A stretch of 51,520 bases of DNA, from assembly GCA_030649995.1 (NCBI GenBank), contig JAUSEV010000011.1, positions 1 to 51,520 of the forward strand. The letters are read 5' to 3'. Positions within the stretch are counted from its first letter, which is position 1. Each line of letters starts with the position of its first letter. A model generated the notes under the pieces. It was not told the DNA's origin. It saw nothing but the letters and a program-made list of their open reading frames with translations, and made no database searches. Origin of the DNA: Candidatus Uhrbacteria bacterium (GTDB lineage: Bacteria; Patescibacteriota; Patescibacteriia; 2-12-FULL-60-25). Shown piece by piece: positions 5,241-35,677 of this stretch. The position numbers and the translations under genes were made by a program.

Positions 5241-5445
5241 TAAAACATTAAAACATGAAAACACAAGAACAGGAAAACCTTAAAACAGGAGAGGTGGTGT
5301 TCATCTCTCTGTCATTGCGAGGAGCGAGTCCGCGAGTGACGTGGCAATCTCCCCGCAGCTCTCGGAGATTGCCACGCTTCGTATGACTTCGCTCGCAATG
5401 ACAATCAGTTGATTTTTTGTTTTCATGTTCTTGTGTTTTCATGTT
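5241..5445. repeat. Inverted arms of 8-bp words around a REP-like unit
   Basis: The left arm (5241-5280) is a run of words such as TAAAACAT and GAAAACAC; the right arm (5419-5445) is its counterpart, GTTTTCAT and GTTCTTGT. The core 5252-5271 is the exact reverse complement of 5426-5445 (20 bp). Between the arms lies the separate REP-like unit at 5311-5402. The right arm runs into the promoter of the gene at 5460. Confidence 0.8.
5311..5402. repeat. REP-like palindromic repeat, copy 1
   Basis: Starts GTCATTGCGAGGAGCGA and ends GCTCGCAATGAC, with inner arms GGCAATCTCC and GGAGATTGCC. The same architecture recurs at 28204-28288. Short imperfect palindromes of this type are widespread non-autonomous repeats in bacteria. 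Confidence 0.85.
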
Positions 5446-5459: not shown

Positions 5460-5969
5460 ATGCCCCCCCAACCCCCAGAACTGAAAGAAGCGCTTGCTTT
5501 GAGTCAGGAGCAATTTGTGTGGGAAGCGCCGATACGCCTTCACTACGAACGAGGTCCGCGCTGGTATCTGTTCATGGCCGTGATCGCGCTTCTTTTTGTC
5601 GCGTATGCCGTCGCGACCGCGAATTTTTATTTCGCCTTCATCATTCTTTTGGCGTCGATTATTCTGATCCTGACCGGCAACGAACCTTCTAAACAGGTGT
5701 TAATCCAGATCGGCGAACATGGTCTGGTGCGTGATGGCAAGCTCTACCTCTATCAAGATTTAACTCAATTCGCCATCATCTATCATCCGCCCTTCATCAA
5801 GGTTCTTTATATCGATCATCGCAATCCCCTGATCCCACGCCTGCGCATCCATTTGGAAGATCAAAATCCGGTTGAACTGCGCGAATACTTAAAACAATTC
5901 ATTCGCGAGGATCTGGACTTGCAAGACGAACATCTTTCCGATATGATCGGGCGGCTGCTTAAGATATAG
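5460..5969 (+). CDS. Two-helix membrane protein, unknown function
   Basis: I chose the ATG at 5460 because the upstream frame lies inside the repeat. The product has 169 residues: a soluble acidic N-terminus, two adjacent membrane helices (about residues 36-75, with a short turn), then a soluble C-terminal half with alternating hydrophobic beta-like segments (VLIQIGEHGLV, KLYLYQDL, IKVLYIDH). The layout resembles small membrane proteins with a cytoplasmic PH-like domain, but I cannot name a family. The stop TAG merges into the first unit of the 7-bp array at 5969. No neighbours suggest a pathway. Confidence 0.7.
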   Translation: MPPQPPELKEALALSQEQFVWEAPIRLHYERGPRWYLFMAVIALLFVAYAVATANFYFAFIILLASIILILTGNEPSKQVLIQIGEHGLVRDGKLYLYQDLTQFAIIYHPPFIKVLYIDHRNPLIPRLRIHLEDQNPVELREYLKQFIREDLDLQDEHLSDMIGRLLKI

Positions 5970-6004
5970 GTTACGGGTTACAGGTGACAGGTTACAGGTG
6001 ACAG
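5969..6004. repeat. Left arm of 7-bp-period array flanking S23 gene 1
   Basis: Units GGTTACG, GGTTACA, GGTGACA, GGTTACA, GGTGACA. It begins at the stop codon of the preceding gene and ends two bases before the S23 start. The reverse-complement arm is at 6401-6442. Confidence 0.85.
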
Positions 6005-6005
6005 A

Positions 6006-6374
6006 ATGGCTATGGAGATAAAGTCATTTAGGGAGTTGATTGTCTGGCAAAAAGCGATGGAATTGGCGAAGCAAATCTATAACATCACTTCGCTTTTTCC
6101 ATCGTTCGACCAATTTGGGCTGGCGAACCAGATGAGAAGATCCGCTGTATCTATTCCTTCAAACATTGCTGAAGGCAAGCAAAGAAAAACAAAAAATGAT
6201 TATCTGCATTTTTTAAGGATGGCATACGGATCCGCCGCTGAACTTGAAACGCAAATTCTTTTATCCAAGGACATTCACTCATCTTTGGATTATGTGGATG
6301 CGGAGGCGGCTGTCATCGAAATACAAAAAATGCTGAATGTCCTGATTCAGCACTTAGAAAATCCTCATTCTTAA
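6006..6374 (+). CDS. Four-helix-bundle protein, S23 family
   Basis: The 122-residue protein fits the S23/four-helix-bundle family first seen inside intervening sequences of 23S rRNA; it is related in fold to the Avd accessory protein of diversity-generating retroelements. Diagnostic stretches are FRELIVWQKAMELA, FGLANQMRRSAVSIPSNIAEG and the LRMAYGSAAELETQ helix. The family is thought to bind nucleic acid, and no enzymatic role is known. The gene lies between two inverted arms of a 7-bp-period array (5969-6004 and 6401-6442). A second family member at 34183 has the same arrangement. An alternative start is the ATG at 6012. Confidence 0.93.
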   Translation: MAMEIKSFRELIVWQKAMELAKQIYNITSLFPSFDQFGLANQMRRSAVSIPSNIAEGKQRKTKNDYLHFLRMAYGSAAELETQILLSKDIHSSLDYVDAEAAVIEIQKMLNVLIQHLENPHS

Positions 6375-6400
6375 TTTTCTTCACTTATAATCTGTAAATC

Positions 6401-6442
6401 ATTACCCGTAAGCTGTAACCCGTCACCTGTAAGCTAGTTACT
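6401..6442. repeat. Right arm of 7-bp-period array flanking S23 gene 1
   Basis: Units read CGTAAGC, TGTAACC, CGTCACC, TGTAAGC, the reverse complement of the arm at 5969-6004. It lies between a TATAAT (6386-6391) and tRNA-Arg. Confidence 0.8.
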
Positions 6443-20052: not shown

Positions 20053-20127
20053 TTAGACATTAGTCATTAGACATTAGTAATTAGTCGGCCGAATGTCTAA
20101 TGACTAATGTCTAATTACTGATTACTC
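20053..20127. repeat. Inverted 7-bp-period array between virB4 and the next gene
   Basis: Left arm words ATTAGAC, ATTAGTC, ATTAGAC, ATTAGTA, ATTAGTC; centre CGGCCG; right arm ATGTCTA, ATGACTA, ATGTCTA, ATTACTG. Bases 20053-20076 and 20093-20116 are exact complements (24 bp). The right arm reaches into the virB4 stop codon. Confidence 0.9.
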
Positions 20128-22023: not shown

Positions 22024-22093
22024 TTTAGTCATTAGACATTGGTCATTAGACATTCGGCCGACTAATTACTAATAACTAATGTCTAATGACTGG
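22024..22093. repeat. Inverted 7-bp-period array upstream of virB4
   Basis: Same word family as at 20053 (ATTAGAC, ATTGGTC) with the CGGCCG centre and a right arm of ACTAATT, ACTAATA, ACTAATG. Bases 22027-22040 pair with 22078-22091. Confidence 0.88.
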
Positions 22094-22786: not shown

Positions 22787-22793
22787 AATGAAA

Positions 22794-22945
22794 GGCTCTA
22801 GGCGTTAGGCTTTAGGCTTTAGGCTTTAGGCGTTAGGCTTTAGGCGTTAGGCTTTAGCTAATGCCTAGTGCCTAGTGCCTAGCGCCTAGCGCCTAGTGCC
22901 TAACGCCTAGCGCCTAGTGCCTAACGCCTAGCGCCTAGTGCCTAA
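22794..22945. repeat. Long inverted array of 7-bp units
   Basis: Nine units of GGCNYTA on the left (GGCTCTA, GGCGTTA, GGCTTTA repeated; 22794-22856), a four-base loop, then twelve units of TARYGCC on the right (TAGTGCC, TAGCGCC, TAACGCC; 22866-22942). The period is exact throughout. The right arm ends in the stop codon of the PrgI gene. The two arms use different sets of variant bases, so they diverged or were built independently. Confidence 0.95.
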
Positions 22946-23376
22946 CTCTCCTCCGGATTATACACCCCTCCCGTGTTTACCGTGAGTGCCATGTCTCGCA
23001 AGTGACTTGAGGTTGGCGGCGGCTTGATGATGACCGGCGGAGGTGGCACGACTTTTTTTAAAGCGATATACAGTCGTAATTCGGCATCCGCGAGATCTTT
23101 GTGCCAAACACGCAACGGCGGACGGAGCGAGGTTTGGAGAAAATTGACGAAAAAAATGTGGAATGGTTGGCCGTTGATTTTGAGAAAAGAAAAAACTGAC
23201 GCAACAGCCGCCGTGAGAACGCCGATCACCACAAAATACCCGAAACGAAACAGTTTATATTCGATGAAGATGATAAAAACCGCCGCCAACATGACCAAAA
23301 ATTGACGCACGGTAATAGGCCCGAGAATCTTATCCTCCGTGTCAATAAATTGTGGAACAACAAATTTTTCGGGCAT
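22942..23376 (-). CDS. PrgI-family T4SS membrane protein
   Basis: PrgI-like proteins are small inner-membrane components of Gram-positive-type T4SS, roughly equivalent to VirB3. The N-terminus FVVPQFIDTEDKILGPITVRQFLVML is the family signature, followed by two membrane helices (about 28-65) and a soluble tail with a proline run (PPPPVIIKPPP). Length is 144 residues. It lies between the 534-residue gene and the TraC-like gene. Its stop codon TAG is formed by the first unit of the 7-bp array. Confidence 0.88.
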   Translation of the reverse strand: MPEKFVVPQFIDTEDKILGPITVRQFLVMLAAVFIIFIEYKLFRFGYFVVIGVLTAAVASVFSFLKINGQPFHIFFVNFLQTSLRPPLRVWHKDLADAELRLYIALKKVVPPPPVIIKPPPTSSHLRDMALTVNTGGVYNPEES

Positions 23377-23386
23377 ATTTATTTGG

Positions 23387-23450
23387 GAAGTAATGAGTAA
23401 TGAGTAATGAGGGTTGGACGCATTACGCGTTACGCATTACTCATTACTTC
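23387..23450. repeat. Inverted 7-bp-period array upstream of prgI-like gene
   Basis: Left arm GTAATGA three times, centre GGGTTGGAC, right arm GCATTAC, GCGTTAC, GCATTAC, TCATTAC. Bases 23387-23402 are exactly complementary to 23435-23450. Confidence 0.9.
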
Positions 23451-23451
23451 A

Positions 23452-25056
23452 TTAAAAGTGTATCTGACTGTTTAACTGAACCAGCGCGGCGATTTCTTCT
23501 GGAGAAATGAAGCTTGGATCTTGCGCGCGGCGCTCCGCAACAAGCGCGGCCACAGGCTTACCGGTCGCAAAACTTTCTGACACCAACTTGAGATATTGCT
23601 GCTGCATGGGCGAACGATGCCAGGCCTCGATCCCTTCGGTCCAATGTTCAAACGATTCCTGCTTCAACGTCTCAAATTTTTGTTTTATTTTCTCCACAGC
23701 CGTCTCCGGCGTTTTGGCCAAGCGACGGAACTCGGCCACACCCATCCCCCCAATCTCCTCCGTGAGTCCCGTGAGCCTGACCGGGGGTGGTTGTACTCCA
23801 TCAATGGTCGTCCCCCCTAATGACTTATGACTAATGTCTAATGTCTGATCTTTCCCGCCTGTCCCCGCCTTCATCGCTGCGACCACCTGATCATGCGCGG
23901 CAGCCAACGGATTGATCCCCTGCACCTTTTCTTGAAACCACTTAGCGTGCTCCTCGCTCTCGCGTTTTTTGCGTTCTTCGATTTTCTTCTGTTGCTCGAT
24001 CGCGGTCGCCTCGATCTGCCCGCGTTCCTCCGCCTCGATTTTTTGATGATTCTCCTGATAAAACTTTTCGATCACCGGCGCGATACGATCCGCTTCTTCG
24101 CTCGAAAGCCCCATCCCGCCAACTTGCGGCGCCCGACTCAAAACCGCCTTGGTATCCATGGCGTTACGCACATCTCGCAACCGCGTAGAAATAAGGTTGC
24201 GCAACCGTTTTGTCATGTACTCATCCAACCCGCTTAATCCGATTTGACCCACAGCCGCATCAATCGCCTCATCTTGAGAAAACGTAACATGCGCCGGCGC
24301 CATAAGCTTATTCGCCACATGCCCCGCAATCTCCGCCTCTTCCGGATTGGCTGACGTTTCGATCGTATCTCTTATTTCTTTTTTCGTATTTCCTTCTTGT
24401 TCGATCTTATTCAACCACTCCGCGTATTCCTGTTCAGGCATCACTTGAGTGGAAGCGAGAAAATCCGTCATCGCTTTGCCGAAAGCCTCTGCTTGCTCGC
24501 GACTAAAACCCAATCCCCCATCCCCTTGCCTGCGTTGAACGGTTTCCTTGACCTGCTCGATCGTACGCACGCCTTTGATAGAGGAAATCAACACCTCGCG
24601 CAAACGACGAACCATTTCTTCCGAAAGCAAATGAATTTTTGCGAGCGCGGCGATTCGTCGAGTGGCTGCTCCATAAGAAGCGGGACGCAAAGACACGCGA
24701 AACGCGCTTTGAATATCGGCGAGTGGCACTCCCAGTTCTTGCAAACGTCCTTCCACGTTCCAGGAAATAAGATCGGCGAGCGGAAGAATGACGTGAAACA
24801 GAACCGCCTTTTCAACGTCCTCGGGTTTGCGATCTCCGGCAAGACGACGCAATCGCTCGCGGCAATCCTCTTTTGACAAACCCGCGAACACCGTATCCCA
24901 AACCACATCCATCACCCGATCCCACGCGTCATTGTCGTAGGCGAGTTGGGCTTGAGCGTCATCTTCGTTCTTACTGGCTCGATCGCGATCAATGAGATAT
25001 TCCTGCACCACGGTTGGAGCCGCTTCATAATATTTTAACCAAGTATCGCGATCCAT
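23452..25056 (-). CDS. T4SS-operon-associated helical protein, unknown function
   Basis: A 534-residue, mostly helical soluble protein with no signal or membrane segment, located between the VirB6-like gene and the PrgI gene. A motif recurs: GGLGFSREQAEAFGKAM, GGMGLSSEEADRIAPVI and GGMGVAEFRRLAKT, each before a helix, suggesting an internally repeated domain. A charged coiled coil (about 350-385) follows the second. Around residues 406-418 the peptide DQTLDISHKSLGG is encoded by a 7-bp-period array inside the gene (23817-23851). I know no named family. A cytoplasmic partner of the secretion channel is inferred from position. Confidence 0.72.
   Translation of the reverse strand: MDRDTWLKYYEAAPTVVQEYLIDRDRASKNEDDAQAQLAYDNDAWDRVMDVVWDTVFAGLSKEDCRERLRRLAGDRKPEDVEKAVLFHVILPLADLISWNVEGRLQELGVPLADIQSAFRVSLRPASYGAATRRIAALAKIHLLSEEMVRRLREVLISSIKGVRTIEQVKETVQRRQGDGGLGFSREQAEAFGKAMTDFLASTQVMPEQEYAEWLNKIEQEGNTKKEIRDTIETSANPEEAEIAGHVANKLMAPAHVTFSQDEAIDAAVGQIGLSGLDEYMTKRLRNLISTRLRDVRNAMDTKAVLSRAPQVGGMGLSSEEADRIAPVIEKFYQENHQKIEAEERGQIEATAIEQQKKIEERKKRESEEHAKWFQEKVQGINPLAAAHDQVVAAMKAGTGGKDQTLDISHKSLGGTTIDGVQPPPVRLTGLTEEIGGMGVAEFRRLAKTPETAVEKIKQKFETLKQESFEHWTEGIEAWHRSPMQQQYLKLVSESFATGKPVAALVAERRAQDPSFISPEEIAALVQLNSQIHF
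23817..23851. repeat. 7-bp-period array inside a coding sequence
   Basis: Units CTAATGA, CTTATGA, CTAATGT, CTAATGT, CTGATCT, translated on the minus strand as part of the 534-residue protein's linker. It is the same word family as the intergenic arrays at 20053, 22024, 29831 and 34101. Confidence 0.8.
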
Positions 25057-28158: not shown

Positions 28159-28203
28159 TAAAATGGACGACTCCACAGCAAGCTCTAGAAACATCAGCTT
28201 TCT

Positions 28204-28288
28204 GTCATTGCGAGCGGAGTTCGACGAAGCGCGGCAATCTCCGATGGCTGCAGGGAGATTGCTTCGTCGTATGACTCCTCGCAATGAC
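28204..28288. repeat. REP-like palindromic repeat, copy 2
   Basis: Starts GTCATTGCGAGCGGAG and ends CTCCTCGCAATGAC, with inner arms GGCAATCTCC and GGAGATTGC. It has the same architecture as 5311-5402 and lies between the divergent T4SS and LCP genes. Confidence 0.85.
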
Positions 28289-28308
28289 ACAAAGGAACGC
28301 ACCCATCA

Positions 28309-28337
28309 TTGCTCATACTCTCTCGCATTGCTACAAT
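28309..28337 (+). promoter_or_regulatory. Promoter of the LCP gene
   Basis: TTGCTC (28309-28314), 17-base spacer, TACAAT (28332-28337). The predicted start is about four bases before the ATG at 28348. Confidence 0.5.
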
Positions 28338-29830: not shown

Positions 29831-29899
29831 GTCATTAGACATTAGTCATTAGACATTCGGCCAGACTAATTACTAATGACTAATGTCTAATGACTAATC
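29831..29899. repeat. Inverted 7-bp-period array between LCP gene and der
   Basis: Words GTCATTAG/ACATTAGTC on the left, CGGCCA centre, ACTAATT, ACTAATG, TCTAATG on the right. Bases 29831-29850 are exactly complementary to 29875-29894. Confidence 0.9.
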
Positions 29900-29900
29900 T

Positions 29901-34089: not shown

Positions 34090-34100
34090 GGGGGTGGGGC

Positions 34101-34133
34101 AGACATTGGTAATTAGTCATTAGACATTAGTCT
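34101..34133. repeat. Left arm of 7-bp-period array flanking S23 gene 2
   Basis: Words AGACATTGGTA, ATTAGTC, ATTAGAC, ATTAGTC. Its complement lies after the S23 gene at 34546-34580. Confidence 0.85.
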
Positions 34134-34182
34134 TAAAAAATCCTCGCTCAAATTGCTAACCTCACAAAGGGCTGTTTTCACT

Positions 34183-34560
34183 ATGACTAAAGTTGAGAAA
34201 TATACGGATCTTGAAACATGGAAGAGAGCTCATTGGTTCACTATTGAAATTTATAAAATGACGAAACTCTTTCCGAAAGAAGAACGCTTCGGGTTAACGG
34301 ATCAGTCACGACGATCAGCAAGCTCAATCGGTGCGAATATCGCCGAAGGATTCGGAAGGTATCACTTTAAGGATAAAAACAAATTCTATTATCAAGCTCG
34401 CGGATCCCTTTTTGAAATTCAAAATCATTTGCACCTTGCCAAGGATCTTTCATGTATCTCCCAAAAAGAATTCGATACTCTCTTTCTCGAATCCCAAGAT
34501 CTCGGACGCTTAATAAATGGGCTCATTAGATCAACCGGCATCGTTCGGCCTAATGTCTAA
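34183..34560 (+). CDS. Four-helix-bundle protein, S23 family (second copy)
   Basis: A 125-residue member of the same family as the gene at 6006, but clearly divergent in sequence: DLETWKRAHWFTIEIYKMT, FGLTDQSRRSASSIGANIAEG, then the third helix YYQARGSLFEIQNHL. I start at ATG 34183; a TTG further up is unlikely. The last codons and the stop (RPNV*) are formed by the right arm of the 7-bp-period array. The two arms enclose the gene exactly as at 6006. dprA follows. Confidence 0.92.
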   Translation: MTKVEKYTDLETWKRAHWFTIEIYKMTKLFPKEERFGLTDQSRRSASSIGANIAEGFGRYHFKDKNKFYYQARGSLFEIQNHLHLAKDLSCISQKEFDTLFLESQDLGRLINGLIRSTGIVRPNV

Positions 34561-34580
34561 TGACAAATGTCTAATGTCTG
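34546..34580. repeat. Right arm of 7-bp-period array flanking S23 gene 2
   Basis: CGGCC followed by TAATGTC, TAATGAC, AAATGTC, TAATGTC. The CGGCC is the half that forms the centre of empty arrays at 20053, 22024 and 29831. It encodes the C-terminus of the S23 protein and could be mistaken for the start of dprA. Confidence 0.85.
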
Positions 34581-34585
34581 AATTT

Positions 34586-35677
34586 ATGTCATGGACCGAA
34601 GAACGGGTCGCGCGTTTATGTTTAGGCTCGTTCCCCGGCTTTGGCAGCCGTACGCTGCGCAAGTTATGGGCTGCATTTCTAGATCCGCAAGCGGCGTGGC
34701 TGGCTTCGGGATCAAAACTGACCTCCGTTGGTATTTCGGAAAAAGTGGCGCAACGCTTTGTGAGTTGGCGAGCGACCGTGGATCCGGCGAGCTTGGTGGA
34801 ACGACTGGAACGTGACAGCATCTCCGTATTATTCAAAGACGATCCAACATTTCCTTCGGCTTTTCGCCATTCGTCCGACCCGCCGGAAATTCTATTTGTG
34901 CGCGGAACGCTGCGCGATGTCCCTGCTATCGCCATTGTGGGTACGCGTCGTTTTACGCAGTATGGAAAACGCTGTGTCGATCTGCTTGTGCCAGACCTCG
35001 CGCGCAGCGGCTTGTTGATCGTTTCCGGTCTTGCGTTGGGGATCGACGCTCTGGTTCATCGATCGACTCTTGAAGCCGGCGGTTACACGGTGGCGATCCT
35101 CGGCGGCGGCGTGGATGATGACGCGATCTATCCGCGAGAAAATTTTCCTTTGGCCAAACAAATTTTAAGTGCCGGCGGCGTCATGATCTCGGAATTTCCT
35201 CCCGGCGCGGAAAATCGCAAGGAACATTTTCCCATGCGCAATCGTCTGATCGCTTCCCTTTCTTCGGCGACGCTGGTCATTGAAGGTACACCTGAAAGCG
35301 GCTCCATGATTACAGCCAAGCTCGCGCTCGAAGAAAACCGCGAGGTGTTGGCCGTACCCGGTCCCATCTGGAGCGAAGCTTCGAGCGGCACCAATCAACT
35401 GTTAAAGCTTGGCGCCAAAGTCTGCACGCGTAGCGCGGATGTGTTGGAAGCTCTGTCTCTCGATCGCCCGGAACTCATGGCCCAAGCGCGTCTGATGTTG
35501 CCACTTGATCCAATCGAAGAGCATATTTTGACATTTCTCACCGAACCGCAACACGTGGATGAATTAGGACGACTCATGGAAACAACCTCTGCCACCATTT
35601 CCGGAAAACTCGCTCTTCTGGAATTAAAAGGACTGGCAAAACCGATTGGGGGACAAATGTGGGTAAAAGGGAGATAA
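34586..35677 (+). CDS. dprA: DNA-processing protein DprA
   Basis: DprA protects incoming single-stranded DNA and loads RecA during transformation. I start at ATG 34586 (363 residues); the upstream in-frame codons are translated repeat. An N-terminal helical region with a helix-hairpin-helix-like stretch (FPGFGSRTLRKL) precedes the Rossmann-like core: IAIVGTRRFTQYG, SGLALGIDALVH, ILGGGVDDDAIYPREN, EFPPGAENRKEHFPMRNRLIAS, SGSMITA. The C-terminus has a winged-helix domain (HVDELGRLMETTSATISGKL). Together with comFC, radA and the T4SS it supports competence. Confidence 0.95.
   Translation: MSWTEERVARLCLGSFPGFGSRTLRKLWAAFLDPQAAWLASGSKLTSVGISEKVAQRFVSWRATVDPASLVERLERDSISVLFKDDPTFPSAFRHSSDPPEILFVRGTLRDVPAIAIVGTRRFTQYGKRCVDLLVPDLARSGLLIVSGLALGIDALVHRSTLEAGGYTVAILGGGVDDDAIYPRENFPLAKQILSAGGVMISEFPPGAENRKEHFPMRNRLIASLSSATLVIEGTPESGSMITAKLALEENREVLAVPGPIWSEASSGTNQLLKLGAKVCTRSADVLEALSLDRPELMAQARLMLPLDPIEEHILTFLTEPQHVDELGRLMETTSATISGKLALLELKGLAKPIGGQMWVKGR

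Follow-up and report, generated by a model that had tools for sequence, protein, structure and literature searches.

What does an S23 gene do between two inverted arrays of 7-nt words, and how do the same words come to lie elsewhere in the genome with no gene between them? These questions are raised by the S23 gene 2 locus (34100–34580) in a 51,520-nt stretch of Candidatus Uhrbacteria bacterium DNA, contig JAUSEV010000011.1, which as a whole is called the window here. It belongs to genome G000, which has 1.08 Mb in 50 contigs, is 99% complete and holds five S23 genes. To our knowledge, S23 (four helix bundle protein, PF05635) is widespread and has a solved structure, yet its function is not known, and we know of no recombinase domain in it. 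S23 gene 2 has pth on one side and dprA on the other, and its locus comprises the following features.

34100–34132, plus strand: left (5′) arm of about 4.5 heptamer words (ATTGGTA ATTAGTC ATTAGAC ATTAGTC), sequence CAGACATTGGTAATTAGTCATTAGACATTAGTC
34183–34560, plus strand: S23 gene 2, an intact gene for the S23 / 23S rRNA intervening sequence protein, PF05635
34546–34550, plus strand: CGGCC junction word at the end of the gene 2 coding sequence, resembling the (C/T)G(G/A)CCG centre of the empty copies
34550–34579, plus strand: right (3′) arm, CTAATGTCTAATGACAAATGTCTAATGTCT, with the left-arm words in inverted copy

The match of gene 2 to PF05635 is strong (E = 7e-36, 123 bits against a curated cut-off of 33.8). 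The inverted arrays around it are built of ATTAGAC/ATTAGTC words; ATTAGTC occurs 13 times in the window compared with 3.4 expected, a count reached in no shuffle. Using the reverse complement of the left arm as the query, the own right arm scored best, above 79 other right flanks, with a score of 21, compared with a median of 7.5 and a 99th percentile of 14.5 for mismatched flank pairs. The description in the initial annotation of a divergent S23 gene cradled by inverted arms of ATTAGTC words is borne out by the intact PF05635 gene and this arm score. The last codons of the gene span the CGGCC word (CGG CCT AAT GTC TAA, encoding R P N V and stop), and the stop codon (34558–34560) lies inside the right arm. 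The right arm is just 5′ of the likely dprA start, an ATG near 34586 (region 34517–34600), so the insertion may have altered the start or expression of dprA. In the congener G002, pth and dprA nearly overlap.

Arrays with no gene between their words lie elsewhere in the window, among them these six, of which the first four are built of gene 2 words.

20053–20119, plus strand: gene-less copy with gene 2 words and centre CGGCCG, a hairpin; absent from the congener G001, array of other words in G002
22024–22092, minus strand: gene-less copy, oppositely oriented, centre CGGCCG; G001 and G002 both lack such an array at the site
29831–29900, minus strand: gene-less copy with centre TGGCCG; absent from G001, array of TAACTAG words in G002
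23816–23851, plus strand: one-armed array of gene 2 words
22792–22946, no strand assigned: large gene-less palindromic array of TAGGCGT/TAGGCTT words, the word family of an S23 gene on contig C19 (L002)
23384–23450, no strand assigned: gene-less palindromic array of TAATGAG/TAATGCG words, an orphan family, with no matching S23 gene found in G000

Gene 2 words make up the empty arrays at 20053, 22024 and 29831, as first described, and these arrays form near-perfect hairpins (z about -9). They have in common the asymmetric centre ATTAGTC(T)G(G/A)CCGAATGTC, and more empty copies with gene 2 words lie on contigs C9, C21, C23 and C28. The centre reads (C/T)G(G/A)CCG in eight complete empty copies of this family; compared with the CGGCC of gene 2, the shared junction therefore amounts to about five bases on one side. 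The claim that gene 2 and the empty copies share CGGCC thus holds at 34546–34550, but for this word family only. As a consistent junction across loci it fails, because words and junctions vary from element to element. A second dispersed palindrome, GTCATTGCGAG...GCAATCTC...CTCGCAATGAC, has many copies in G000 (in the window at 28190–28310 and 5310–5420), and the copy near 5310 is framed by words of 8-nt period, TTAAAACATGAAAACAC / GTTTTCATGTTCTTGTG.

All five S23 genes of G000 are surrounded by inverted word arrays, and the words are specific to each gene: ATTAGTC, GTTACAG/GTGACAG, TAGCTTC/TTAGGCG, TAGGCAC and GATAATC. The second S23 gene in the window, gene 1, has words unlike those of gene 2.

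5965–6005, plus strand: left arm of S23 gene 1, GTTACGGGTTACAGGTGACAGGTTACAGGTGACAG
6006–6374, plus strand: S23 gene 1, PF05635, E = 1.6e-35
6391–6434, plus strand: right arm of S23 gene 1, CTGTAAATCATTACCCGTAAGCTGTAACCCGTCACCTGTAAGC

A tRNA gene directly adjoins four of the six S23 genes of the genus (L001, L003, L005 and L036).

To describe the arms in general, we aligned left flanks to the reverse complements of right flanks for 80 S23 loci in 41 genomes of the same family and for a broad sample of 80 S23 loci from many phyla (Patescibacteria, Bacteroidota, Acidobacteria, Planctomycetes, Chloroflexi, Nitrospirae, Omnitrophica, deltaproteobacteria, Cyanobacteria and others). The cut-off of 14.5 is the 99th percentile of mismatched family flanks. 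The median arm score was 19 in the family, compared with 7.5 for mismatched flanks, with 68 of 80 loci reaching at least 14.5 and the own right flank being the best of 80 in 57/80. The broad sample gave the same medians (19 and 7.5), with 61/80 at or above 14.5 (its own 99th percentile being 15). Pooled, 129 of 160 S23 loci score at, near or above the 99th percentile of mismatched flanks, whereas only 0.7% of 1,900 control ORFs other than S23 reach 14.5. Within the arms, words recur every 7 nt: the autocorrelation at lag 7 reaches 0.50 in the family and 0.51 in the broad sample, compared with about 0.26 for other lags, and lags 14 and 21 give echoes. Their median length is 31 nt (interquartile range 26–35), or about 4.4 words. 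S23 genes therefore carry arms in most relatives and across phyla, rather than lacking them in most relatives, the outcome that the initial annotation named as refuting its reading. Arms of period 8 instead of 7 were seen at L197, L210, L211, L218, L229, L235 and L238, several of them from Bacteroidota; which period an arm has may vary with the S23 subfamily. One S23 subgroup (L069, L081, L084, L087, L093, L094 and L101) has GAGCGCGCAA-type arms without clear heptamers.

In 81% of cases the coding strand of the left arm is rich in G, which gives the element a strand polarity. This polarity, the ability of the arms to form strong hairpins and the position of many cradles within operons would suit an IVS-like RNA element, whose arms would be an RNA stem cut by RNase III. 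S23 would then bind the RNA and protect or regulate it, excision from the transcript would let insertions into operons or rRNA be tolerated, and spread would be passive, by recombination or an unrelated transposase. S23 is indeed named after such elements in 23S rRNA, and the Coxiella IVS combines a 28-bp terminal stem and excision by RNase III with a strain-variable number of tandem GACAGAT heptamers 5′ of the S23 start codon (PMC4990558). Gene 2 likewise is an S23 ORF between terminal inverted repeats. It is not inside an rRNA gene, however, as Rfam models find no rRNA in the window, and among 40 diverse S23 loci none lies in rRNA. Alone, an RNA element of this kind also leaves unexplained the genome-wide gene-less copies with the same words and the 5-bp direct repeat described below. 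We regard it as unlikely, if still worth serious attention.

The gene-less copies form a large population. In about 320 kb of G000, examined as stretches, there are 79 arrays of lag 7, compared with 0–3 for the other lags from 5 to 11 (5, 6, 8–11); these tandem 7-nt units are intergenic and occur several times per genome, as in the known heptameric repeats. The words of the genome's own S23 genes are found in 40 of 74 G000 arrays located away from S23 genes. Taken singly, own S23 words match 5, 9, 12 and 15 arrays, whereas foreign S23 words match 0.99 on average and none at all in 64% of cases. The remaining arrays belong to a few word families with no S23 gene in G000 (TAATGAG/TAATGCG, CATGAAG, GTAACTAG and GGAATCA), which we read as orphans. 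Since such families account for about half of the G000 arrays, it may be that S23 is lost, that it acts broadly or that it is not required. Among family genomes, those without a cradle S23 have 2 arrays in 340 kb, compared with 61 in 543 kb for those with S23 (G000 left out) and 68 in 269 kb for the G000 stretches. Array density and S23 are correlated (Spearman 0.69; Mann–Whitney p = 6e-4, kinship ignored); roughly, heptamer arrays need S23. Word matching extends to other phyla: a Nodularia S23 word has 12 matches in its own genome and 0–3 in nine others, and a Chloroploca S23 word has 58 in its own genome, mostly on one contig, and at most 7 elsewhere.

We compared sites with and without elements. 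In the congeners G001 and G002 (66–82% DNA identity over matched pieces), the gene 2 site and the three empty-array sites are without these arrays; each is either bare or occupied by a different palindrome or by an array built of different words (CTAAATG and TAACTAG in G002). The pth–dprA gap of G001 (contig C33, 5400–6100, L137) has a palindrome CCTCCTCTTTTGGAAAGAGG... within TATTGAG-like words, and a similar palindrome lies at its 22024 site. Presence and absence at orthologous sites, as expected of MITEs and transposons, is most clearly resolved in cyanobacterial conjugative plasmids that are about 97% identical. The S23 gene and both arms (TCAGAAT words) are present in Trichormus variabilis plasmid C and Scytonema NIES-4073, and S23 is absent at the empty site in plasmids of Aulosira, Nostoc carneum, N. 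linckia, Microchaete and Tolypothrix. The empty site reads AAAAAGTAATTAACAAATAA (shorter stretch AAAAAGTAATTAAC) and the occupied site reads AAAAAGTAAT[AAATCAGAATTC...S23...GAGTTCTTCTTT]GTAATTAACAAATAA, or in a shorter rendering AAAAAGTAAT[AAATCAGAATTC...S23...CTTCTTT]GTAATTAAC. The S23 gene and both arms therefore came in together. The element has a 5-bp direct repeat, GTAAT, on both sides, the only clean direct repeat among the insertions. At four further sites (B–E, 84–95% identity) and for a gene-less insertion in Nostoc C057 (L319), presence and absence are clear; a direct repeat cannot be read with certainty, the insertions being ambiguous or hinting at small deletions. Between the two occupied plasmids, one arm differs by 14 nt (two words); the word number thus drifts after insertion, and this difference (L158 vs L306) shows that array maintenance by slippage is also operating. 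At the equivalent position, Nostoc C052 plasmid pC052_E carries a decayed S23. Related elements with GGGAACA words lie at unrelated sites, as in Fischerella, where the S23 is truncated. Many Nostoc-type plasmids (L316, L317) contain a gene-less element of 185 bp whose arms resemble those of the TCAGAAT S23 element; it has a conserved inner hairpin, AATCAGTGG...CCCCCACTGATT, and is possibly a trans-mobilised derivative.

These sites bear on the proposal that gene 2 had split the centre of an array. In the cleanly resolved plasmid pair the empty site is free of arrays, which means that the gene was not inserted into an existing one; the empty copies are more likely internal-deletion or gene-less derivatives. 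The same result weighs against S23 as a homing cargo that enters heptamer arrays already made by polymerase slippage. Such a cargo would account for the arm–gene–arm layout and for the CGGCC common to the gene end and the array centre, and slippage is what heptameric repeats have been ascribed to (discussed in PMC4692102). Slippage is not expected, however, to give inverted arm symmetry or a common asymmetric centre in gene-less copies, and genomes free of S23 are nearly without 7-nt arrays. We consider this quite improbable. The distinction in the initial annotation between autonomous and non-autonomous copies survives as one between gene-bearing and gene-less forms, supported by the own-S23 words, gain and loss at sites and insertion as a unit; in the strict sense, autonomy would require that S23 alone moves the element, which goes a step further than these data.

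Dispersed intergenic palindromes look like REPs, and S23 is distantly homologous to bAvd, the reverse transcriptase (RT) partner in DGRs; a Y1 (RAYT) transposase could thus have moved the arrays as REP/BIME-like palindromes, or an RT could have copied them as retroelements, leaving S23 a mere passenger. Y1 was not found, however, in seven genomes bearing S23 (G000, G003, G004, G034, G037, G038 and G039), nor RT in eight (G003, G004, G013, G014, G030, G037, G038 and G039). Neither is needed in general, as S23-rich draft genomes such as G004, G037, G038 and G039 are without RT or Y1. G000 lacks PF01797 (Y1), and with it the Y1 transposase flanked by REPs that marks REP–RAYT systems; its sole RT is on another contig, C4. 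The gene 2 locus has no adjacent RT and no template or variable repeat of the DGR kind. The DGR/bAvd-type S23-like genes, L037 (beside an RT), L059, L060 and L061, have arm scores of 6–8, i.e. no arms. An S23 carried along in this way is highly improbable. As a general requirement for mobilisation, Y1 transposase or RT is rejected, neither being consistently present.

The S23 protein itself is strongly conserved in cradles: Gln (98%), Arg (96%), Ser (99%), Asn (95%), Glu (97%), Gly (95%) and Arg (83%) are followed by Gly-Ser (85% and 90%) and Glu (99%). Conserved Glu residues of the gene 2 protein are E55 and E78. The polar residues are spaced by 3–4 along predicted helix 2, which suggests that they form a buried polar face. 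The DGR-type proteins are without this Q-R-S-N-E...S-E signature, and the bAvd profile PF22296 matches gene 2 distantly, at E = 2.5e-5, under its curated cut-off. The S23 profile search also matches the solved structure 2gsc (XCC0516; E = 5e-36), and among phage records no S23 relative was found. Between related cyanobacterial S23 copies at different sites, dN/dS is about 0.10–0.15; the protein is therefore kept for its function by purifying selection. Word sharing rises with S23 identity, from about 1% of pairs below 50% to 26% at 60–80% and 3/3 pairs above 80%. As judged from these sequences, arms and protein are inherited together, and such co-inheritance alone would also yield this rise. 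The S23 crystal structure (2gsc) is reported to be a pentameric ring of four-helix bundles (PMC4990558), and the 4–5 words per arm and the five subunits per ring may be related, although this is only a suggestion.

We therefore favour, with a probability of roughly 0.6, the reading that the locus is a small mobile element, an S23 gene between inverted arrays of its own 7-nt words, and we infer that S23 mediates its movement. The gene and both arms (about 31 nt, 4–5 words each) would insert together at a new site, and shorter gene-less copies would spread with the same words. The S23 pentamer may recognise the arms that bear its own words, whether as RNA or as DNA in single-stranded or hairpin form, and may perform, or help host enzymes to perform, a staggered-cut insertion, acting in cis on gene-bearing copies and in trans on gene-less ones. 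Word number would then drift by slippage, and words would diverge between lineages. Binding of S23 to its own words and a role in transposition are what the sequence patterns suggest. More tentatively, and with appreciable doubt, S23 may itself mobilise a class of mobile elements that has so far gone unrecognised, as a ring of four-helix bundles with the buried polar signature Q-R-S-N-E-R...S-E that reads and moves 7-nt arrays; on this reading, most bacterial heptameric repeats would be S23 elements or would descend from them without the gene. Were S23 the mover, it would be a new type of DNA- or RNA-mobilising protein with short words that look programmable. Bacterial heptameric repeats were noted decades ago and have been put down to polymerase slippage or to regulation; the tie to S23 joins their origin to the puzzle of S23 function and makes both testable.

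We compared the element with known systems. Heptameric repeats such as the STRRs of Nostoc (GGGGA(C/T)T) and those of Xanthomonas (GGGAATC), often in inverted pairs (PMC4692102), and the TAACTGA repeats of Beggiatoaceae (PMC4679880) are, like the cradle arrays, intergenic tandem 7-nt words. They are described without S23, however, and those of Xanthomonas and Nostoc as generally not tied to mobile elements (PMC4692102), whereas the cradle words are tied to an S23 gene. In the open-access literature, we came across no paper making a general connection between S23 and heptamer arrays. A survey of CRISPR-linked genes includes 23S rRNA IVP (PMC10910872); our guess is that heptamer arrays beside S23 may explain this listing. 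REP–RAYT systems also combine a palindrome-flanked gene-bearing form with many dispersed gene-less copies, but the S23 element has no Y1 domain, S23 is unrelated, and the words differ for each S23 gene. MITEs and IS elements share the terminal inverted repeats, the gene-less derivatives and, in one case, a 5-bp direct repeat; unlike them, the S23 element has no known transposase, and its ends are arrays of variable length instead of fixed sequences. The DGR accessory protein bAvd has a distant sequence relation to S23 and a four-helix fold, yet cradle S23 has no RT at its locus, and the polar signature is absent from the DGR-type homologues. The element also resembles the 23S rRNA IVSs with an S23 ORF of Leptospira and Coxiella, which likewise hold S23 inside terminal inverted repeats; unlike these, the cradle elements are intergenic, fall into word families and have gene-less copies. 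Earlier authors regarded IVSs as remnants of transposition, or their ORF as encoding a part needed for mobility (PMC4990558). The cradle is an IVS-like element that is generally intergenic, built of heptamer words and rich in gene-less copies, and rRNA IVSs fit as one insertion site of a common S23 element, which offers a reason for the presence of S23 in them.
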